Source of the DNA: Planctomycetota bacterium
GTDB lineage: Bacteria > Planctomycetota > Phycisphaerae > Tepidisphaerales > Tepidisphaeraceae
Length of the DNA stretch: 64,000 nucleotides
Reading direction: 5' to 3'
Assembly: GCA_039182125.1 (NCBI GenBank)
Contig: JBCDCH010000010.1
Span: 1-64,000, forward strand
The stretch's first letter is position 1. Every line of letters begins with the position of its first letter. The notes below the pieces were generated by a model. It saw nothing but the letters and a program-made list of their open reading frames with translations. It was not told where the DNA came from and did not search any database. Positions 12,618 through 23,392 of this stretch are shown here, in pieces. Made by a program: the position numbers and the translations under genes.

Positions 12618-12738
12618 ATGGGCTACTTAAAATGCCAAGCGCCCGCCCCAAAGGGGCCGATGACCCCGTTAGGTCCATCGTTGCGTTCGCGCGGCAAGGA
12701 TGCCCGTGCGGGCCTCGATATCGGTAGCGGAGTCGTTC

Positions 12739-13764
12739 ATGTCCGATAAATCAGACAGCCACGCCATGTTCGGGGGAACGTTCCGCACGGACGGCAACGA
12801 GTCGGAGCAGCCGTCGGGAAATCGGTCGGCCATGTCGAGTTGGCACGGCACTTCGAACACCCGGTCGAGCCACGTCCTTCTCATCGACGACGCCCGCAGC
12901 ATCCATCGGCTCGTGGCCAGTTGGCTCAAACACGACGGTCACCGCGTCAGCATCGCCGTCGGAGGCCAGGAGGGGCTCGACTTTGCCCTCGAAAACGAGC
13001 CGGATCTGATTCTGCTCGACATCGACATCCCCGACCGCGACGGGTTTGAGGTCTGTCGCGCGCTCAAGAGCAACGCCGACACGATCGGCATTCCGGTGAT
13101 ATTTCTGACCGCGTCGTCGGACGTGGAGCAGAAGATCCTGGGGCTGGACCTCGGTGCCGTCGATTACATCAGCAAACCGTTCCACCCGGCCGAGTTCCGG
13201 GCCCGGGTCCGCGCGGCCCTGCGGACCAAGCACCTGCTCGACCTGCTGAGTGAGAAGGCCCAGGTCGACGGGCTGACCGGTCTGCGCAACCGCCGGCATC
13301 TCGATGAACGACTTGCTTCGTTGGCATCGCTCATGCGGCGTGGCGGTTCCCCGTTCAGCTGCATCATGGCCGACATCGATCACTTCAAGAGCGTCAACGA
13401 CCAGTACGGTCATGCGTTCGGCGATGAGGTGCTCGTCGAGGTGGCCGAGGCGTTCGTGCAAACCTGCCGCGCCGAGGATGTGTTGTGCCGTTACGGAGGT
13501 GAGGAGCTTTGCGTGCTCACGCCGGAAGTTCCGATGCAGGGAGCGGTCAAACTGGCCGGTCGTCTGCGTGAAGCGGTGGCGGCGATCGAGTTTCGCAAAG
13601 GCGTCGAGACGTTGAGCGTGACGGCCAGTTTTGGTGTCGCCGAGGCGGATCGGATCGACCCGATGGCCGTGGTGCGTAATGCCGACACGGCGCTTTACAC
13701 CGCGAAGGCGGCGGGTCGCAACTGTGTTCGGGCATTCTCCGCCGCCGAGGCCGAAGCCGCTTGA
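12739..13764 (+). CDS. Receiver-GGDEF response regulator (diguanylate cyclase)
   Basis: A 341-residue PleD-like protein that should make cyclic di-GMP when phosphorylated. The receiver domain spans about residues 45-165, with acidic pocket LLIDDARS, phospho-acceptor Asp in LILLDIDIPDRDG, and Lys in YISKPFHP. The GGDEF domain follows, with active site RYGGEEL. The allosteric inhibition site RAED lies exactly five residues upstream, so product feedback is expected. ATG 12739 is preferred over 12700 because GGAG stands 9 bp ahead of it. No cognate kinase is adjacent. A dps gene begins 40 bp downstream on the same strand and may be co-transcribed. Confidence 0.9.
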   Translation: MSDKSDSHAMFGGTFRTDGNESEQPSGNRSAMSSWHGTSNTRSSHVLLIDDARSIHRLVASWLKHDGHRVSIAVGGQEGLDFALENEPDLILLDIDIPDRDGFEVCRALKSNADTIGIPVIFLTASSDVEQKILGLDLGAVDYISKPFHPAEFRARVRAALRTKHLLDLLSEKAQVDGLTGLRNRRHLDERLASLASLMRRGGSPFSCIMADIDHFKSVNDQYGHAFGDEVLVEVAEAFVQTCRAEDVLCRYGGEELCVLTPEVPMQGAVKLAGRLREAVAAIEFRKGVETLSVTASFGVAEADRIDPMAVVRNADTALYTAKAAGRNCVRAFSAAEAEAA

Positions 13765-14745: not shown

Positions 14746-15156
14746 ATGTTTGAATCTCTGCGGAGCAAAACTGAAAAGGAAGACGCGGAGCTGATCCGCG
14801 AACTTCAACACGGCACCACCGAAAGTGCCGCCTTCAACCGTGCCCACAGTCGGGTGCCGGTCGAAGGCCGGCTGCAAGCCTTGCCCGGAAACTTCAGCGA
14901 CGACCAACCCGGCATCGACGGCCAACTCGTCGACATCTCGGCCGGCGGCTGCATGGGCGTCTTTCGCAAACCGCTACAGGTCGGCGACGTGTACCGCGTG
15001 AATTTCGAAACCAAGCAGATATCCGTTCCGCCAACGTACGCCCGATGCCTTCGGGCCAGGGTGCTTCGGGACACCGCGTTCGAGGCAGGCTTCGCCTTCT
15101 TCCGCGCGGTCGATCTCGACAACTCGACCCAGCCCGCCAAAGAGCAAGCGGCATGA
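14746..15156 (+). CDS. PilZ-domain protein (putative c-di-GMP receptor)
   Basis: A 136-residue single-domain protein. The PilZ c-di-GMP-binding signature is visible: RxxxR as R32-A-H-S-R36 and DxSxxG as D63-I-S65-A-G-G68, followed by a beta-barrel-like segment (GDVYRVNFE, ARVLRDTAFEAGFAF). The N-terminal 30 residues are charged and probably helical. It is the first gene of a same-strand cluster with the GAF-HlyD protein 59 bp downstream and the M50-HlyD protein after that. It may therefore report c-di-GMP level to that membrane system. This partnership is an inference from neighbourhood. Confidence 0.8.
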   Translation: MFESLRSKTEKEDAELIRELQHGTTESAAFNRAHSRVPVEGRLQALPGNFSDDQPGIDGQLVDISAGGCMGVFRKPLQVGDVYRVNFETKQISVPPTYARCLRARVLRDTAFEAGFAFFRAVDLDNSTQPAKEQAA

Positions 15157-15215
15157 GCTGACCCGACGATGGCAACTGCACAGGGGGGCCTGACGCAGTT
15201 TGGAGCAAACCAGCC

Positions 15216-17135
15216 TTGGCATTGACGAATGACACATCCCGAACCGACGCGACCGAGCAGGTCCAGCGCAGTGGCGCGTCGTCCGGTGGTGCGCCCGAGC
15301 AGCAGGACGTTTTCGTCCGGCTGACCCGGCTTGCCGCCGAGTCGAGCGATCGCGTTGCCTTGTTGCGTGCCGGCTTCCGAGCGGCGGCCGAGTCCTGTGC
15401 GGCGGTTTACGCGCGCTTTGCCCTCCTCGACGCCGTCGCACCGATCGAGGATCAGTACCACCCCATCGGCGTCGATCCGAACTTCTGGGACGAGAAGGTT
15501 CGCGACGCCCTCGATGTCGCGACAAGCACGGCCCGTTCCGCCGCGACGGTCTACGGCAAGGAGGGCGGCCAACGTGTCGCCATCCTCTCGGCACCGCTGA
15601 CCTCGTCCACCGTCGACACACCCGCCGCACTCGCACTGGCCGCGCCGGTCGACGACGACAATCACGCTTACCAACTCCTCGCCCAGCTTCGCGGCATCGC
15701 CGGCTTGTTGCCGACGCTTGCCGAGCAGGTCGATCGCCGCATCGCCTTTCAACGTCACATCGAGAAAGCCGCCGCCGGCGCACAGCAGGGTGAGATTCTC
15801 GATGCCCTCGCCGTCGGTGCTTCTTCGGAGACCGTCACCGAGTTGGCGTTCTCCATCACGAACAACCTTCGAGCCAAGCTCGGCTGTGATCAGGTTGCCC
15901 TCGCGGCGACCAAGGGGCGGAAGCTCAAACTTGTGAGCATTTCCGGCTTCGCCGACGTGACGCCGCGTTCGCCCGGTGCGATGGCCATCCGCGCCGCTGC
16001 GGAAGAGGCCGCCGACCTGTGCGAGCCGATCATCGTTCAGAGCGGTTACCAGAACCAACACGCCCGGCACCGTCTCAACGAGGCTTGGCATCGCGAGGCC
16101 GATGGTGCCGCCGTTGTGACCATCCCGCTCGAGGCCGGTGGCAAGGTCGCCGCCGTGCTTGCCCTGCGTCACCGGCCCGGGGAACGTTGGGAACCCGAGC
16201 AGGTCGAGAAGATTTCACAGGTTGTCCGGCCTTATGCGTCGGCGCTGACCCTGGTCGAACGGGCCAACACTTCGCTGCTGAGCCACGCGGCATGGTCGAC
16301 CAAGCGAAACATCACCGGTCTGTTCAAGGGACGCGGCCTGGTCAAGCTCACCGCGCTGGCATGCCTGCTGACGTTTTCGATCTGGTTCTTCTTCGGCACG
16401 ATGACGTACACCGTCTCGGCCGTCGCGACGGTGGAGCCCGGGCGGACGCACCAACTGACCGCGCCGTTCAACGGCCGTGTGCTGGAGGTGAAAGTCCGTG
16501 CGGGCAGTGTCGTCGAAGCCGGCGATGTGTTGGCGGTACTCGATGATCTGCCGTTGCGTGCGGAGCAGGCCCGGCTCGAAGCCGAAGTTCAGGTACAGCG
16601 CTACGCCGCGGCTCGTGCCGAAGCCGAGGGCGACATGGGGGCTGCCCAAACCGCCAAGGCCGAAGCACGGGTGTTCGCCGCCGAACTCGCACTGGCCAAC
16701 GATCGCCTCGCCAACGCCGTGGTCCGCGCACCGGCTGCGGGGGTGGTCACCGAAGGCGATCTCGAGAAACTCATCGGCCAACAGGTGTCGCTCGGCACGC
16801 CGTTGCTGGAGTTGGCGCGGTGGGACGAGATGGAGTTCGACATTGCCGTGCCTGATAGTGCGAGTGCCGCGGTCGAAGATGGATTTACCGGAGTGATCGC
16901 GCTCGAAGCCCGACCCGACGATCCTCAGGCGTTCACCGTCAAACGTGTCGCGCCCAGCGGCGAAGTGCGCGATGGCAAGGTCGTGTTCATGGTCACCGCC
17001 ACGCCGGAAAGCCCCGAAGCATGGGTTCGCCCCGGCATGCACGGCACCGCGAAGGTCGACGCCGGTGAGCGCCGCGTCTGCTGGGTCGCCACCCACGACA
17101 TCATCGACTGGCTCCGACTCAAGTTCCTCCTGTGA
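15216..17135 (+). CDS. GAF-domain membrane-fusion (HlyD-like) protein
   Basis: A 639-residue protein with an unusual order of parts. A soluble N-terminal region of about 370 residues contains a GAF-type sensory domain (about 180-345, from LDALAVGASSETV to VVRPYASAL). One transmembrane helix follows at about 374-400. The rest is a HlyD/RND-adaptor domain: beta-barrel and lipoyl halves with RVLEVKVRAGSVVEAGDVLAVLDD, an alpha-helical hairpin (EQARLEAEVQVQRYAAARAEAE) and VRAPAAGVVTEG. The GAF part should face the cytosol and the adaptor part the periplasm. The start is TTG 15216 (or TTG 15222). It lies 7 bp upstream of the M50-HlyD gene. Similar pairs occur in other planctomycetes as far as I know, but a transport substrate is not established. 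Confidence 0.8.
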   Translation: MALTNDTSRTDATEQVQRSGASSGGAPEQQDVFVRLTRLAAESSDRVALLRAGFRAAAESCAAVYARFALLDAVAPIEDQYHPIGVDPNFWDEKVRDALDVATSTARSAATVYGKEGGQRVAILSAPLTSSTVDTPAALALAAPVDDDNHAYQLLAQLRGIAGLLPTLAEQVDRRIAFQRHIEKAAAGAQQGEILDALAVGASSETVTELAFSITNNLRAKLGCDQVALAATKGRKLKLVSISGFADVTPRSPGAMAIRAAAEEAADLCEPIIVQSGYQNQHARHRLNEAWHREADGAAVVTIPLEAGGKVAAVLALRHRPGERWEPEQVEKISQVVRPYASALTLVERANTSLLSHAAWSTKRNITGLFKGRGLVKLTALACLLTFSIWFFFGTMTYTVSAVATVEPGRTHQLTAPFNGRVLEVKVRAGSVVEAGDVLAVLDDLPLRAEQARLEAEVQVQRYAAARAEAEGDMGAAQTAKAEARVFAAELALANDRLANAVVRAPAAGVVTEGDLEKLIGQQVSLGTPLLELARWDEMEFDIAVPDSASAAVEDGFTGVIALEARPDDPQAFTVKRVAPSGEVRDGKVVFMVTATPESPEAWVRPGMHGTAKVDAGERRVCWVATHDIIDWLRLKFLL

Positions 17136-17142
17136 ATCGAAC

Positions 17143-19302
17143 GTGAGCACCGCTCCCGCACAACCCGCCACAGGCTCCCTCGCCGATCAGCTCCGCGAGG
17201 TGACCGTCAGTCTGCGCAGCGATCTGCACGTCTCGCGACACGTCTTTCACGGCGAAGTCTGCTACGTCGTGCGTGACCCGATCACTTTTCAGAGCCACAG
17301 CTTCGATGCCGGCGACTACGCCGTGCTCAGCCGGCTGACCGGAACTCGTCCGCTTGGCGAAGTCTTTACCGAGCTTGCCGGTCGGGGTGTGCTTTCGCCG
17401 GAACGCGAGGAGTCGTTCTACAAGTTCATCCTCCAACTGCACCGGCTGACTTTTCTCATGTTGCCGATCAACGACGCCAACGCGTTGTACAAACGGCACG
17501 AGCAGAACCAGACCCGCAAACGCCGCGCGATGGTCAAGGGTTTCCTTTTCCTCCGCGTGCCGCTCTGGAATCCCGACAACTATCTCGAGCGGACCAAGCA
17601 CTGGTTCGCACCGCTGTTTCATCCGGTCGCACTGATGTTCTGGGCCGTGTTGATGTTCATCACCGCCATCACTGTCGCGCGGCAATGGGAGGCACTGGCG
17701 AACACTTTCTCCGGCATGCTCAGCCTGCAGGGAATCCTGCTCGGCTGGATCATCCTCATCGGACTCAAGGCCGTCCACGAGTTCGGACACGCTTACTGCT
17801 GCAAGCACTTCGGCGGGCAGGTGCCGGAGATGGGGGCGTACTTCATCATCCTCACGCCTTGTGCCTACATGGATGCATCGGCGGCGTGGGGTTTCGTGAG
17901 CCAGTGGCGACGGATCGCCGTGTCGTTGGCGGGCATGTACTTCGAAAGTTGGGTCGCCGCCGCGGCGTTGTTCGTCTGGGCTTCGACACCGCCGGGCATG
18001 CTCAACTTCTTCGCGTTCCAGACGTTCTTCGTCGCGAGTGCGGTGACGCTGCTCTTCAACGCCAACCCGCTGATGCGGTTCGATGGTTACTTCATTCTCA
18101 GCGACCTGATCCGCGTTCCCAACCTGCGCAGCCGATCGACGGCATACACGCTTTCACTGTTCAATCGCGCCACCCTCGGCGTCACGACCGCGACCGCACC
18201 GCACGGGATCGCCATGCGGATCTTTTTCGTTGTCTTCGCGATCGCCTGTGGCATTTACCGGGTCGTGCTGGTGCTGAGCATCTGTGCGACGATCGCGGCC
18301 AAGTTCTTCCTCATCGGCATCGGCCTCGCGGCGTTCTACTGCGTGAGTGAACTGTTCGGCGCGATCAGCCGGACGTGCAAGTTTCTCTGGTTCGATCCGC
18401 GCACGGCGACCGCTCGGAAGCGCGGTGTCGCGCTCGGCGTGTTGTTGGTCTTCGCGTTGCCGACGATCCTGATCTTTTCGCCGACGCCGGGACATGCGTC
18501 GGCGGTCGGCGTGATCCGTGGCTCGGCGGAGCACGAGTTGACGATGCCGCAGGCGGGGTTGGTGGAAGCCGTCGCGTTGGAGGCGGGGCGGTTGATCCCG
18601 GCCGGTGCGGAAATCATGCGGATCGACAATCCGCAGCTCGACGCCGAGCTTGCTGTGGCGAAGCAGGAAGTCCGCGTTGCGGAAGCGCGCGTTCGTGCCG
18701 CCGACGGTGAAGACGCCGCCGCCGTCCGGCAGGCGCTCCTCAAACACGCGGCCAAGGTCCGTGCCTGGGAACTGATCGAGGAAAAACAGATCCGCATGAC
18801 CGTCCGCGCTCCGGCCGACGGCACGCTTGTGTCGACGCTGTCGCGGCGAGACATCGGCCGGTGGGTGATGCCCGGCGAGCCGGCGGCGAAAGTGGTCGAA
18901 GGCCCGTGGCATGTGCATGCGGTACTCGACGAATCCACCATGGCCGGCAGCGTCGTCAACGTCGGTGACGAGGTCTGGGTCCGCCCTGAGCGTCGGCCCG
19001 ATCTTCTCTTGCGTGGCACCGTCACCGAACTGGCGCCTGCGGGTAGCCGACAACTCCCGGACGAAGCGCTGTCGAGCAACGCGGGCGGTCCCGTGCCGCT
19101 GCACCCGATCACCGGTATGCCCGAACGCAATTGGTATCGCCTCACGGTGCGTCTCGACGACGTGCCGACCGATGCCCCGACCGACGCGCTGGCTTACGGC
19201 GGTCGTGCGTCGGTGAAGCTGCCCGGCGAGTACACGCTGCTCGGCCGCAAGGCCTGGCGTGGACTGCTCCGTTTCCGCGACCGCCTTATGCTCGGCGGTT
19301 GA
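17143..19302 (+). CDS. Site-2-protease-like M50 / HlyD fusion membrane protein
   Basis: A 719-residue polytopic protein starting at GTG 17143, 7 bp after the previous stop; the open frame further upstream overlaps that gene. Residues about 1-100 resemble a PqqD-like winged-helix domain (SFDAGDYAVLSRLTGTRPLGEV). A membrane metallopeptidase of family M50 follows, with zinc motif H212-E-F-G-H216 in a helix and the third ligand D314 in NPLMRFDGYF. About eight further hydrophobic segments are present. The C-terminal 200 residues form a HlyD-like adaptor (ELTMPQAGLVEAVALEAGRLIPAG, VRAPADGTLVS). Relatives include YydH-like peptide zinc metalloproteases. A role in intramembrane processing coupled to export is plausible but unproven. 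Confidence 0.82.
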   Translation: MSTAPAQPATGSLADQLREVTVSLRSDLHVSRHVFHGEVCYVVRDPITFQSHSFDAGDYAVLSRLTGTRPLGEVFTELAGRGVLSPEREESFYKFILQLHRLTFLMLPINDANALYKRHEQNQTRKRRAMVKGFLFLRVPLWNPDNYLERTKHWFAPLFHPVALMFWAVLMFITAITVARQWEALANTFSGMLSLQGILLGWIILIGLKAVHEFGHAYCCKHFGGQVPEMGAYFIILTPCAYMDASAAWGFVSQWRRIAVSLAGMYFESWVAAAALFVWASTPPGMLNFFAFQTFFVASAVTLLFNANPLMRFDGYFILSDLIRVPNLRSRSTAYTLSLFNRATLGVTTATAPHGIAMRIFFVVFAIACGIYRVVLVLSICATIAAKFFLIGIGLAAFYCVSELFGAISRTCKFLWFDPRTATARKRGVALGVLLVFALPTILIFSPTPGHASAVGVIRGSAEHELTMPQAGLVEAVALEAGRLIPAGAEIMRIDNPQLDAELAVAKQEVRVAEARVRAADGEDAAAVRQALLKHAAKVRAWELIEEKQIRMTVRAPADGTLVSTLSRRDIGRWVMPGEPAAKVVEGPWHVHAVLDESTMAGSVVNVGDEVWVRPERRPDLLLRGTVTELAPAGSRQLPDEALSSNAGGPVPLHPITGMPERNWYRLTVRLDDVPTDAPTDALAYGGRASVKLPGEYTLLGRKAWRGLLRFRDRLMLGG

Positions 19303-19324: not shown

Positions 19325-20221
19325 CTACGAGCCGCGGACCGCACAGGCGAGCAACTTCCATGACAGCAGTTCGGCCGGCCGCATCTTCAACCGGTTCCAC
19401 GCGTGCTTGCGTGCCGCGTCGGGACGACCGTTGCGAAGCGCGTTCCATGTCCAGTTTTCCAGCCGCTTCTCGGCGGGCGGATCGGTGCGTGGTTCAAGCT
19501 CGAAATCGTCGGTCGGCATGCCACGATCACGCCGCGCGTCGGCGAGGATGATCCGCTTGAGCCGGTTCTGTTCGTCCATCTTCGTGCTGTTGTTGCTCGC
19601 GAGATGTCGGCGGTACTTCACCAACGGCGTCGGCAGGTTGGCGAGATCGCCGATGGTTGCGAGCCGCAGGAAGAAGTCGAGATCTTCGGCCCACTTCATC
19701 TCCGGCCTGTATCCGCCGATCGCGTCGGCGGCGGTCTTTCGGAGTGTTGTGACCGGTTGCGGCATCGCCCAGCCGCTGCCTCGCAACAGACGTTTCTCGA
19801 TCTTGGCGTGGCCGGTCGCGTGATCGGTCAGGCCCAGCGGCACGCCGTACGGATCGACCTCCATCATCACGCTGCCAACGGCAACGATGCCGGGATGATC
19901 GTCGAGGAATGCGACTTGCGCGGCGAGCCGGTTCGGGTCGGTGATGTCGTCGCCATCGACCCGCGCGATGTACTCGCCACGTGCCAGTTGCAACGCTTGG
20001 TTGAGCCGTTCGACGTAGTTGCCCGCGGGCCTCGGCTCGAACCGCAAACGTGGGTCGGTGTATGACGCGGTGATCTTGCGGGTCGCGTCGGTCGAGCCAT
20101 CGTCGAAGAGCACGACCTCGAAGTCGCCGAAGGTTTGTGCGAACATCGAGTCGAGCTGCTCGCGCAGGTGTCGCGCCGCATTGCGGACGCACATGACGAA
20201 ACTGACGCGGGGCGTGGACAT
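19325..20221 (-). CDS. Glycosyltransferase family 2
   Basis: A 298-residue GT-A-fold glycosyltransferase of family 2, using a nucleotide sugar donor. It opens with VSFVMCVRNAARHLREQLDS. The nucleotide-binding acidic motif is DDGSTDATRK, the metal-binding DxD-like motif is VDGDDITDP, and the ED motif of the acceptor side is KWAEDLDFFLR. The last 60 residues are Arg-rich and unlike the core. It begins 3 bp after the stop of another GT2 gene, so they are an operon, probably for a surface glycan. The sugar and acceptor cannot be named. Confidence 0.88.
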   Translation of the reverse strand: MSTPRVSFVMCVRNAARHLREQLDSMFAQTFGDFEVVLFDDGSTDATRKITASYTDPRLRFEPRPAGNYVERLNQALQLARGEYIARVDGDDITDPNRLAAQVAFLDDHPGIVAVGSVMMEVDPYGVPLGLTDHATGHAKIEKRLLRGSGWAMPQPVTTLRKTAADAIGGYRPEMKWAEDLDFFLRLATIGDLANLPTPLVKYRRHLASNNSTKMDEQNRLKRIILADARRDRGMPTDDFELEPRTDPPAEKRLENWTWNALRNGRPDAARKHAWNRLKMRPAELLSWKLLACAVRGS

Positions 20222-20224
20222 GGG

Positions 20225-21544
20225 TTACGTGCGAGTCTCGGCGACCCGTTTTTGCAGGGCATCGTGCGGCAGTGGGTTTACCGGGTTTACCCAAACGTGC
20301 AATTCGGATCGACACGCGTCCAGTAATGCGGCACGGGCGGACTTTTCGTCTTCGGGCACATCGACAAGCTTGGTCCGCACGTCCCGCTCGGACCAGCGTT
20401 GCAGCCGAGCGATGGTGTCGTCGGTGCTGCCGCGATCGCCGACGAGGATCTCGCGGTCCGGTGTTGTTTGACGCTTGAGCGATTCCATTACCGCGTCGAT
20501 GGTCGGGCCATCGTTTCGGGTCAGGACCAGCGCGGTGATCGCCGGCGGGCGGTCCGGGTCGGCGGGAGCGGCGTGCATGGTCCTGCCACGCTGCGGGAAC
20601 ATCTCGGCGGGCCACTTCGTGCGGAGCTTGTCTTCCCGGCGTTTGGTGCTCCGTGGGTCGCGGCCGTACATCGTCGGCAAGCCTTGCACGTACCGTCGCC
20701 AGTTGACCACGCCCGCGCGCCGAAGTGCGGTCCATTCCGTTCGCGCGTCGCGGCGATGCACACGCTCGGCGAGTGTCCGTACGGCCTGCCAGCCGAGGCC
20801 TTCCAACAGCAATTGCCGTCGCGGCGTGAGTCGATCATGCTCCGTTAGCAGTTGGTTCAAGTGTTGCACGAACCCCGGCATGGCGCGGGCGTGTTGCTTG
20901 TTGAACGAGTCGCCGCTGATGCTCCGACGCGTCGCACCGGTGATGCGATAGTGGAGGTCGATGGTGTCGTGTTTCGCGTAGCGCAGCCCCCGACACAGGG
21001 CATGAACGTGGTACTCCATGTCCTGTCGGCTGGGCAAACCCTCGAGCCAGCGTGGGGCCGCCGATCGTCGCCAGAGCGGACTGCTCGTCTGCCAGACCGT
21101 GTCGAGTGCGAGGAACCGATCGAGATCGTCCACGCTGTTGTCGAGGACGTTCCAAAGACAGTTCACATCCCCTGGCTCGTGTTCGAAAAGCTGGCACCCG
21201 AAGACGACGGCATCCAACTTGTCGGTGAACGCATCGAGTCGATGTTCGAGGCAAGTCAGTTCGATCAGGTCGTCATCGTCGAGGAAGAGCACGAACTCGC
21301 CGGCCGCGCGATCGAGGCCGAAGTTGCGTGCGACTGGCGCACCGCCGTTCTCGCCGAGAAGCTTGTGGTACGCGATGCGGTCGTCGCCGAGCCCCGCAAC
21401 CCGGTCGGCCGCATCGTCGGTGCCGTTGTCATCGACGACGATCGTCTCCCAGTCGCCGAAGGTTTGTGCCCGCACCGACGCAAGCGTCTCGCCAAGCAGC
21501 GGCCCGCGGTTGTGCGTCGGAATGACAATGGAAACGCGCGGCAC
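20225..21544 (-). CDS. Glycosyltransferase family 2 with a second partial GT2 domain
   Basis: A 439-residue protein. Residues 1-230 form a complete GT2 domain: VSIVIPTHNRGPLLGETLAS, VDDNGTDDAADR, LFLDDDDLIEL. After a linker, residues about 330-439 restart as a second GT2 opening (PPAITALVLTRNDGPTIDAV, VGDRGSTDDTIAR), but the chain ends near the place where the DxD would be. The C-terminal unit is thus half a domain and unlikely to be active alone. It may be a remnant of gene fusion or a dimerisation module. The gene directly precedes the other GT2 gene (3 bp). Confidence 0.85.
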   Translation of the reverse strand: MPRVSIVIPTHNRGPLLGETLASVRAQTFGDWETIVVDDNGTDDAADRVAGLGDDRIAYHKLLGENGGAPVARNFGLDRAAGEFVLFLDDDDLIELTCLEHRLDAFTDKLDAVVFGCQLFEHEPGDVNCLWNVLDNSVDDLDRFLALDTVWQTSSPLWRRSAAPRWLEGLPSRQDMEYHVHALCRGLRYAKHDTIDLHYRITGATRRSISGDSFNKQHARAMPGFVQHLNQLLTEHDRLTPRRQLLLEGLGWQAVRTLAERVHRRDARTEWTALRRAGVVNWRRYVQGLPTMYGRDPRSTKRREDKLRTKWPAEMFPQRGRTMHAAPADPDRPPAITALVLTRNDGPTIDAVMESLKRQTTPDREILVGDRGSTDDTIARLQRWSERDVRTKLVDVPEDEKSARAALLDACRSELHVWVNPVNPLPHDALQKRVAETRT

Positions 21545-21688: not shown

Positions 21689-23392
21689 TCACGGCAGTTC
21701 GATCCAGTCGAGTCGGCCGTCCTCGCTGCCGTGGGTGATCAGGTACCGGCCGTCGCCTGAGATGGTCGCGCTCCATGAGTGCGGTGTCTTGGGTAGGCGG
21801 TGAAGCGTTGGCGGTTCGGTGCCGAAGTCGACCACCATGAATCGGTCACGGCCCGTGTGGCCGTCGAGAACGACGCGTTGACCGAAGACGCTTTTGATGC
21901 GGCGGAAATGGATGCCGGTGGTGTAGAACTTGCGTGGCTCGGACTGGGCGGCTACCGGCGAGATTGTGAGCGTGTCGCTCGAAACACCGATCAGCCCGAT
22001 GGAATCAATCAAGGCCAGGTAACTCGCCGAGTCATAAGTTGCGACGTCATCGGTAATGGTAAAGGGTTCCCATTGTGTGTTGGCGGGATCGCTTATGGCA
22101 CGATCGAGGTTTAGCAAGCGGTTCGTCTGGTCGTTCCAAAGGTAGTGGGGCCAGATGAAGTCGAAGTAGTCCGGCACATCGTCGGCCGGCAGCGGGTGAA
22201 TTCCGTTGGCGTTCAGATACCGTGGCGTGTTGGTGTCTCGATCGGATTCGATAAAGCCTTCGTGAAAATGGATCAGGCGGCTGCCGTTGATGCGATCAAC
22301 GATCGCTCCGGTTTTGGTGTTGCGAATCTGGCCCCGATTCTCGGAGTCTCTCTCCCAGTCTTCGTAAAGTGGCCAAAGTCCGGGACTGAGCTTCTTTCGC
22401 ACTCCACCGATCGCGAGCCAATCCACCGCCTTGCCCGTATCCGGGTTGAATCGCAGGCAGCGGTCGTCGAACCAGATCAGAAAATCGCCGCCGGGCTCGG
22501 TGGTGATATGCCTGACGTCGCCGTCGACATGGGTGGTTTGCCAGATGCCGGGGAAGTCGACGACGGTCATGTCCGGCGGCGCAAGGTGCCAGACCCGTGT
22601 TGGCCCGATCTGACCGTGCGTGGCACGCCAGTCGACGCGTCCGTCGCGGATGGTGTCGGGCCAACGGTAATCGTCGATCGGTGTGCTCTCCGGCGGGATG
22701 ATCGCGAGTACGCCGGGCTCGCCATTGATCTCGAACGGCAGCTCGATTTCCGACGCTTTCACAACCGCGGGGAAGAACGTGAGTTTGTCGTTGGGGCCGC
22801 GGTTGATCGGCAGTGAGGCTTTCCAACGCACCATCGGGTCAATGGCGCCGGCGACATCCCGCGTCGGCCCGGTCGCCACGGTGATGCGGTACGGCTCGAT
22901 CGTGATAAGCAGCGTCCCTTCGTCGGCCCCGTCGACGATCGGCATGACCAACGCGACCGCTTCGTCGGGCAACGGGTCGTAACGCGGGAACGCATCCAGC
23001 AGACGCTTGGCTTTCAGGTGTGGCTCGTTGGCGAGTGCGATGTGACCGTTCACGGCGGCGAGCGCCGTCGGACCCGGCCGTACGTCATACCGCGCGTCGA
23101 GCGTTGGAGCATCTGCGGCAAAACGCGGATATTGATCTGGAAGCGATCCGGGCGGCTCGATGTCTCGATAGACCGGCTCATCGCCGCCGACCGTGTCGCC
23201 GGCGATCAACGCCTCGAACGCCCGGTCGGCCGCGCGACGATGGTGGGCCCGCTGCAGGTCGCTGAGATAGCCGAGCAAGCGGTCAGCCTGCCAAGCACCG
23301 ACACTGACCAGCACGAGCAAGCCGACCAGTAGTGCCGGCTTCCATCGCCGACGTGCCGTCTTGCCGTGCGCATACTCCAAAGCCTCGGGCAT
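21689..23392 (-). CDS. Membrane-anchored protein of unknown function (beta-rich ectodomain)
   Basis: A 567-residue protein that I do not recognise. It has one N-terminal transmembrane helix (ALLVGLLVLVSVGAW, residues about 19-33) preceded by an Arg/Lys-rich cytoplasmic tip, so the rest is probably periplasmic. The ectodomain is beta-strand-rich. Its last part has repeats reminiscent of a propeller (HSWSATISGDGRYLITHGSEDG). Codon use is less GC-extreme in the middle than in the neighbours. It lies 144 bp upstream of the two glycosyltransferases on the same strand and about 100 bp after the frameshifted TPR gene. A link to glycan assembly is possible from context only. Confidence 0.7.
   Translation of the reverse strand: MPEALEYAHGKTARRRWKPALLVGLLVLVSVGAWQADRLLGYLSDLQRAHHRRAADRAFEALIAGDTVGGDEPVYRDIEPPGSLPDQYPRFAADAPTLDARYDVRPGPTALAAVNGHIALANEPHLKAKRLLDAFPRYDPLPDEAVALVMPIVDGADEGTLLITIEPYRITVATGPTRDVAGAIDPMVRWKASLPINRGPNDKLTFFPAVVKASEIELPFEINGEPGVLAIIPPESTPIDDYRWPDTIRDGRVDWRATHGQIGPTRVWHLAPPDMTVVDFPGIWQTTHVDGDVRHITTEPGGDFLIWFDDRCLRFNPDTGKAVDWLAIGGVRKKLSPGLWPLYEDWERDSENRGQIRNTKTGAIVDRINGSRLIHFHEGFIESDRDTNTPRYLNANGIHPLPADDVPDYFDFIWPHYLWNDQTNRLLNLDRAISDPANTQWEPFTITDDVATYDSASYLALIDSIGLIGVSSDTLTISPVAAQSEPRKFYTTGIHFRRIKSVFGQRVVLDGHTGRDRFMVVDFGTEPPTLHRLPKTPHSWSATISGDGRYLITHGSEDGRLDWIELP

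Follow-up and report, generated by a model that had tools for sequence, protein, structure and literature searches.

A PilZ, GAF-HlyD and M50-HlyD gene trio in Planctomycetota and its association with large LEPR-XLL surface proteins

Three adjacent genes in the window (the whole 64,000-nt stretch of Planctomycetota DNA analysed here) probably encode those core components of a type-I-like secretion system that lie in the inner membrane and the periplasm. The system lacks an ABC transporter and would serve surface proteins of the LEPR-XLL (Planc_extracel) class, which range from large to giant. What carries this reading is the organisation of the genes, a PilZ slot kept in relatives, invariant catalytic residues, an RRE-like fold, and a linkage to cargo seen both in gene neighborhoods and in co-occurrence across genomes. 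The original prediction had been of a system, linked to c-di-GMP and lacking an ABC pump, that processes and exports small secreted substrates. The conserved PilZ gene and the lack of an ABC transporter hold up, the small substrates do not, and c-di-GMP binding and proteolysis keep the status of predictions.

Table 1. Trio genes, their domains and motifs, and a nearby GGDEF gene, in window coordinates.
Feature	Position	Strand	Basis
REC-GGDEF protein, active site GGEEL	12700..13764	+	Pfam GGDEF 151 bits, Response_reg 89 bits
PilZ-domain protein, 136 aa	14746..15156	+	Pfam PF07238 35.0 bits
PilZ c-di-GMP motif, intact: RxxxR = R32-R36, DxSxxG = D63-G68			
GAF-HlyD membrane-fusion protein, 639 aa, TTG start	15216..17135	+	Pfam, AlphaFold, Foldseek
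RRE-M50-HlyD fusion, 719 aa, GTG start at 17143	17143..19302	+	
PqqD/RRE-like N-terminal domain of the M50 protein, residues 20-109	17200..17469	+	VIA-align to 5v1v_A
HExxH zinc-protease motif (H212, E213, H216)	17776..17790	+	Alignment of relatives
D314 in NPLxRxD motif, third M50 ligand	18082..18084	+	Alignment of relatives
HlyD/MexA-like periplasmic adaptor domain, residues 448-704 of the M50 protein	18484..19254	+	Structure matches

The genes lie on the forward strand as originally described (Table 1), with gaps of 59 bp between PilZ and GAF-HlyD and 7 bp between GAF-HlyD and M50-HlyD. The PilZ protein has the RxxxR plus (D/N)xSxxG pattern of c-di-GMP-binding PilZ domains and is predicted from it to bind the messenger. 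In Pfam searches the GAF-HlyD protein matches HlyD_3 (62.1 bits) and GAF (29.5 bits), and the M50-HlyD protein matches HlyD_3 (27.9 bits); together with the structure matches, these place both among the HlyD-type membrane-fusion proteins of type I secretion systems. The Peptidase_M50 score of 25.5 bits is slightly below the Pfam cut-off of 27.2, and reaches 29.9 bits with neighboring pieces. By sequence and model, the HExxH motif and the distal aspartate of a site-2 protease lie in transmembrane helices. The residues named in the original prediction, H212, E213, H216 and D314, are all in place and invariant in 37 of 37 aligned relatives, and the protein is predicted to be proteolytic.

AlphaFold models of the M50-HlyD (pLDDT 87.5) and GAF-HlyD (pLDDT 88.8) proteins add to this. 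The N-terminus of the M50 protein, called PqqD-like beforehand, has no Pfam match, but in the model it superposes on the RRE TbiB1 with its leader peptide (lasso-peptide complex 5v1v; Z 10.8, 86 residues aligned, 2.6 A; VIA-align), which suggests leader recognition and cleavage. Its adaptor domain matches MacA, MexA, AcrA and EmrA (Z 13-16, VIA-align). No solved M50 structure is among the VIA-align matches listed for this model, because the adaptor domain dominates them, and this is not evidence against an M50 fold. The cytosolic half of the GAF-HlyD protein, expected to be a GAF sensor, is modeled as two GAF-like folds (residues 27-145 and 207-318), the first of them without a Pfam match, followed by a single transmembrane helix (374-393) and a periplasmic adaptor domain (395-620); the best Foldseek match is MacA (3fpp).

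Relatives were collected by an alignment-based scan of genome contigs, giving 80 named loci, 44 in a PilZ-type clade and 36 others. PilZ presence was counted only in the 37 of the 44 with more than 2.4 kb of DNA upstream of the M50 gene, and 36 of these have it next to the pair, so the partner singled out in the original prediction is conserved. The pump that it had reported missing is missing here too: a motif scan found no LSGGQ-type ORF beside the window trio or in the 44 clade loci, and none of the 44 has a SecA. In the sister clade 31 of 36 loci have a dedicated SecA-like ATPase and one has an ABC signature; PilZ is absent from all 36. There are two kinds of locus in the phylum, with PilZ before GAF-HlyD, as in the window, or with the gene for a SecA-like ATPase immediately following that for M50. 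The window's genome has both, since a separate SecA-type copy (L061, on contig C32) consists of adaptor, GAF-HlyD, M50-HlyD, SecA-like ATPase and RTX protein genes; the RTX protein has a LEPR-like start. The window M50 protein has a 31 percent identical paralog in its own genome. In a FastTree reconstruction of 103 M50-HlyD proteins, a branch with local support 100 has all 45 PilZ-labeled rows to one side of it. That side contains no SecA row, and also holds seven unlabeled ones, six at contig edges and one (L205) without PilZ. The PilZ c-di-GMP motif itself is mostly, not always, kept in sequence: it is found in 9 of 10 loci of a first set and in 33 of 37 PilZ proteins of a second that overlaps it by at least two genomes (L187 is G207, L203 is G300). 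Four of the second set are without the full motif, the G300 copy being degenerate and that of L189 truncated.

Further partners vary. An extra small adaptor and TolC recur beside the trio in some relatives (in L089 both are in the same operon, with an OEP match of 161.8 bits), while neither is found beside the trio in the window. The original prediction did not mention the extra adaptor or TolC partners, the diguanylate-cyclase-like gene considered below, or the sister system with SecA, described in 2015. At L048, L049, L074, L077, L117, L120, L218, L220, L227, L231 and L251, a DUF3467 (PF11950) gene stands just before GAF-HlyD, the slot of PilZ in the window's clade, and may be an alternative regulator. 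One genome has a ParA/BcsQ-like ATPase (AAA_31; L063:5777-6553) between PilZ and GAF-HlyD, and its GAF-HlyD frame is unusually long (851 codons). A type II Cas9 gene lies near one SecA-type locus (L042:10251-13529), and one PilZ-type locus is on a contig labeled Myxococcales (L190, JALSIO010000773.1), through either transfer or a binning error.

The neighborhoods of these relatives also point to a cargo. Genes for long repeat proteins, which contain PKD, cadherin, Big_9 or RTX domains, adjoin the trio, some directly upstream; complete examples have 660 aa (L197), 766 aa (L191) and 913 aa (L215), or are in frames of 3199 codons (G037) and 3899 codons (G207, the cultured Planctomycetes bacterium Pla86, CP036296.1). 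The expectation of small secreted substrates thus gives way to large to giant surface proteins. Among ORFs of at least 60 aa no conserved short gene was found beside the trio, the recurrent neighbors being large. At their N-termini the cargo proteins have a LEPR-XLL-class motif in an extended form, LExRxLLS(A/G)TWxDAD, and at their C-termini they have in common LWxLhRG, a short hydrophobic motif, and after it a charged tail. These neighbors bear on another possible role, in which a small RiPP-like peptide is processed by the M50 protein, in the manner of daptide and epipeptide proteases, and exported by the HlyD pair, with PilZ incidental. The RRE-like domain would suit such a role, and in NCBIfam the M50 half comes closest to the daptide protease NF041824 (147 bits), then to YydH/LiaK, but the recurrence of large, doubly tagged repeat proteins, with no short precursor family among ORFs of that size, and the conservation of PilZ make it very unlikely.

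Profiles were made of both tags. The C-terminal one, built from six cargoes, was run on 1357 ORF ends from the 80 loci. At E<0.05 it matched 18, every one of them in a PilZ-clade locus; one (L187) is a protein that also served as a training row. The N-terminal profile of the extended signal has eight rows, seven of them from trio genomes; G032 and G224 were not used in building it. This profile matched nine of 294 Planctomycetota genomes at E<=1e-7, with all others at E 1e-3 or weaker. Eight of the nine have a PilZ-type pair, and in the ninth, G224, a PilZ-type M50 gene is cut by the contig edge, with adaptor and cargo genes alongside on the same contig; the association is partly circular because of the origin of the profile rows, and genomes of close kin do not count as independent.

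In the window's genome the sole match to the extended signal (G000:C3:10032-10124) is in an ORF of 7527 codons (G000:C3:9852-32435) that ends with GLWLMLRQMVG, and so has both tags. The other four complete LEPR-class giants of this genome (on contigs C22, C72, C46 and C1) are without the C-terminal motif. By its sequence, the 7527-codon ORF is therefore the probable cargo of the trio, from which it is unlinked, being on another contig. A LEPR motif flagged by regular expression in the window itself (21689-23392) was judged spurious, since the N-terminal segment of the ORF is hydrophobic and no Pfam domain matches it.

At the level of whole genomes, the LEPR-XLL domain (NF012209) closely follows the M50-HlyD protein. 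Among 61 relatives, 42 of the 47 genomes that have M50-HlyD carry it and none of the 14 that lack M50-HlyD do (Fisher p 5e-10, with one weak match, in G045, counted as without). Outside the window's own family 16 of 21 carry it, again against none of 14 (p 1e-5). For the 294 Planctomycetota genomes the figures are 26 of 67 and 1 of 227 (p 5e-18), so that 26 of 27 LEPR-positive genomes carry M50-HlyD; all of these p values ignore shared ancestry. The same module is found outside the phylum on plasmid records. One from Thalassospira has an annotated LEPR-XLL giant with DUF3467, HlyD, M50-HlyD, adaptor and TolC genes, and in one from Pseudosulfitobacter a 38.8 kb LEPR-XLL gene adjoins HlyD and M50-HlyD. 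The third, from E. coli (NZ_CP081687.1; L276:4830-24581), encodes a DUF4347/cadherin protein of 4459 aa starting LESRQLFDGAA. Its gene is followed by TolC, adaptor, HlyD and M50-HlyD genes, with neither SecA nor PilZ alongside. Planctomycetes encode some very large bacterial proteins, and the co-occurrence and the tags together point to a concrete pair of machine and cargo, amenable to deletion experiments in a cultured species.

On the grounds of fold, residue conservation and association between genes, an order of recognition, cleavage, transport and c-di-GMP control can be proposed. The RRE domain of the M50 protein would bind the N-terminal LExRxLLS(A/G)TWxDAD leader of the cargo, and the intramembrane M50 site would cut at or near it while the chain enters the complex. 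The two HlyD-type proteins, with a third, small adaptor and a TolC-type channel, would form the conduit through periplasm and outer membrane; the C-terminal LWxLhRG and charged tail could be an end-of-cargo signal for secretion or retention, and c-di-GMP-bound PilZ and the tandem GAF domains might gate the machine in the cytosol. Energy would perhaps come from the housekeeping SecA; G207, G250, G254, G300 and G315, all PilZ-type, have a single SecA each, of housekeeping length. In its full form, as a c-di-GMP-gated machine with no dedicated ATPase, in which the M50 protease and RRE act as channel and signal peptidase in place of an ABC transporter and read a code of N-terminal LEPR and C-terminal LWxLhRG, the proposal is tentative. 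If true, it would describe a protein exporter with a protease in the place of the ABC pump and under second-messenger control.

A different division of labor, possible though doubtful, would have the cargo translocated by the housekeeping SecA and Sec pathway, with the trio acting downstream as adaptor and LEPR signal protease, HlyD tethering TolC and PilZ controlling display or release. Site-2 proteases of the M50 family classically cut signal or anchor segments, PilZ-type genomes are without a dedicated ATPase, and the sister clade uses a SecA paralog, so SecA chemistry fits the machine. The missing dedicated SecA does not, however, show that the housekeeping one has taken over, and the cargo N-termini look by eye unlike classical Sec signal peptides, being long, basic and hydrophobic over a short stretch only.

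Two other sets of genes in the window lie close to the trio. The REC-GGDEF protein (Table 1), whose gene precedes PilZ on the forward strand and is separated from it by a ferritin-like gene, is by its sequence a candidate local source of c-di-GMP. A motif scan found no such gene in 51 related loci, so it is not a conserved diguanylate cyclase partner and its membership in the system is doubtful. Downstream, two GT2 glycosyltransferase genes (19325-21544) are on the opposite strand, and a link of these to the trio is unsupported. The trio could otherwise recall Alg44 of alginate synthesis, where PilZ is known together with a HlyD-like domain, and a c-di-GMP-controlled export or modification of polysaccharide in which the GT2 genes take part. 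Besides the orientation of those genes, the conserved neighbors seen at related loci, which are cargo proteins, a small adaptor and TolC, argue against this, and it is the least probable of the readings considered.

The proposed secretion of large surface proteins by the trio also has to be set against systems already described. The nearest is the SecA_DEAD / Peptidase_M50 / HlyD / GAF-HlyD locus that Kamneva, Poudel and Ward described (2015; PMC4452313). They suggested that it works in the manner of a T1SS, M50 being a possible membrane pore, and called its biological role completely unknown; they name no cargo, and neither PilZ nor LEPR is mentioned in their main text. That locus shares with the window the order of the homologous genes, GAF-HlyD then M50-HlyD, and the lack of an ABC transporter; it has an additional HlyD adaptor and sometimes OEP/TolC. 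The window form differs in having PilZ in the slot before GAF-HlyD, and the secondary SecA_DEAD ATPase is absent from the trio and from the 44 clade loci, where the pair is present. Among open-licence PMC papers no other earlier description of the system was found, and none linking the LEPR-XLL tag to an exporter. The proposed mechanism, if true, would explain the purpose of the 2015 loci.

Type I secretion (HlyB-HlyD-TolC), and particularly the giant-adhesin systems with LapD/LapG, share with the trio HlyD adaptors, a TolC that lies beside the trio in some relatives, candidate giant cargo of RTX or cadherin type, a C-terminal tag and a predicted c-di-GMP connection. The differences are a polytopic M50 protease in place of the ABC transporter, a PilZ rather than LapD-type receptor, and an N-terminal leader besides the C-terminal tag. 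The daptide and epipeptide M50 proteases (NF041824, NF058609) have an intramembrane HExxH core resembling residues 104-401 of the window protein, which falls short of the cut-offs of these families (147.2 bits against NF041824, where the cut-off is 300) and has a fused HlyD domain. Alg44 (PilZ-HlyD) and Bcs-type c-di-GMP exporters likewise couple PilZ to a HlyD-like periplasmic adaptor, whereas the window has separate genes, an M50 partner and a candidate protein cargo, with no synthase seen at the locus. The cargo N-terminus belongs to the LEPR-XLL (NF012209) / Planc_extracel (PF07595) class, NCBIfam and Pfam names that carry no export machinery; the PilZ-type cargo stands apart from it by its own extended LExRxLLSxTWxDAD form and the C-terminal LWxLhRG. 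The SecA/M50/HlyD kind of locus is thus already known, although uncharacterised, and what is new here is the PilZ clade, the assignment of a probable cargo with its tags, and the RRE-like fold.
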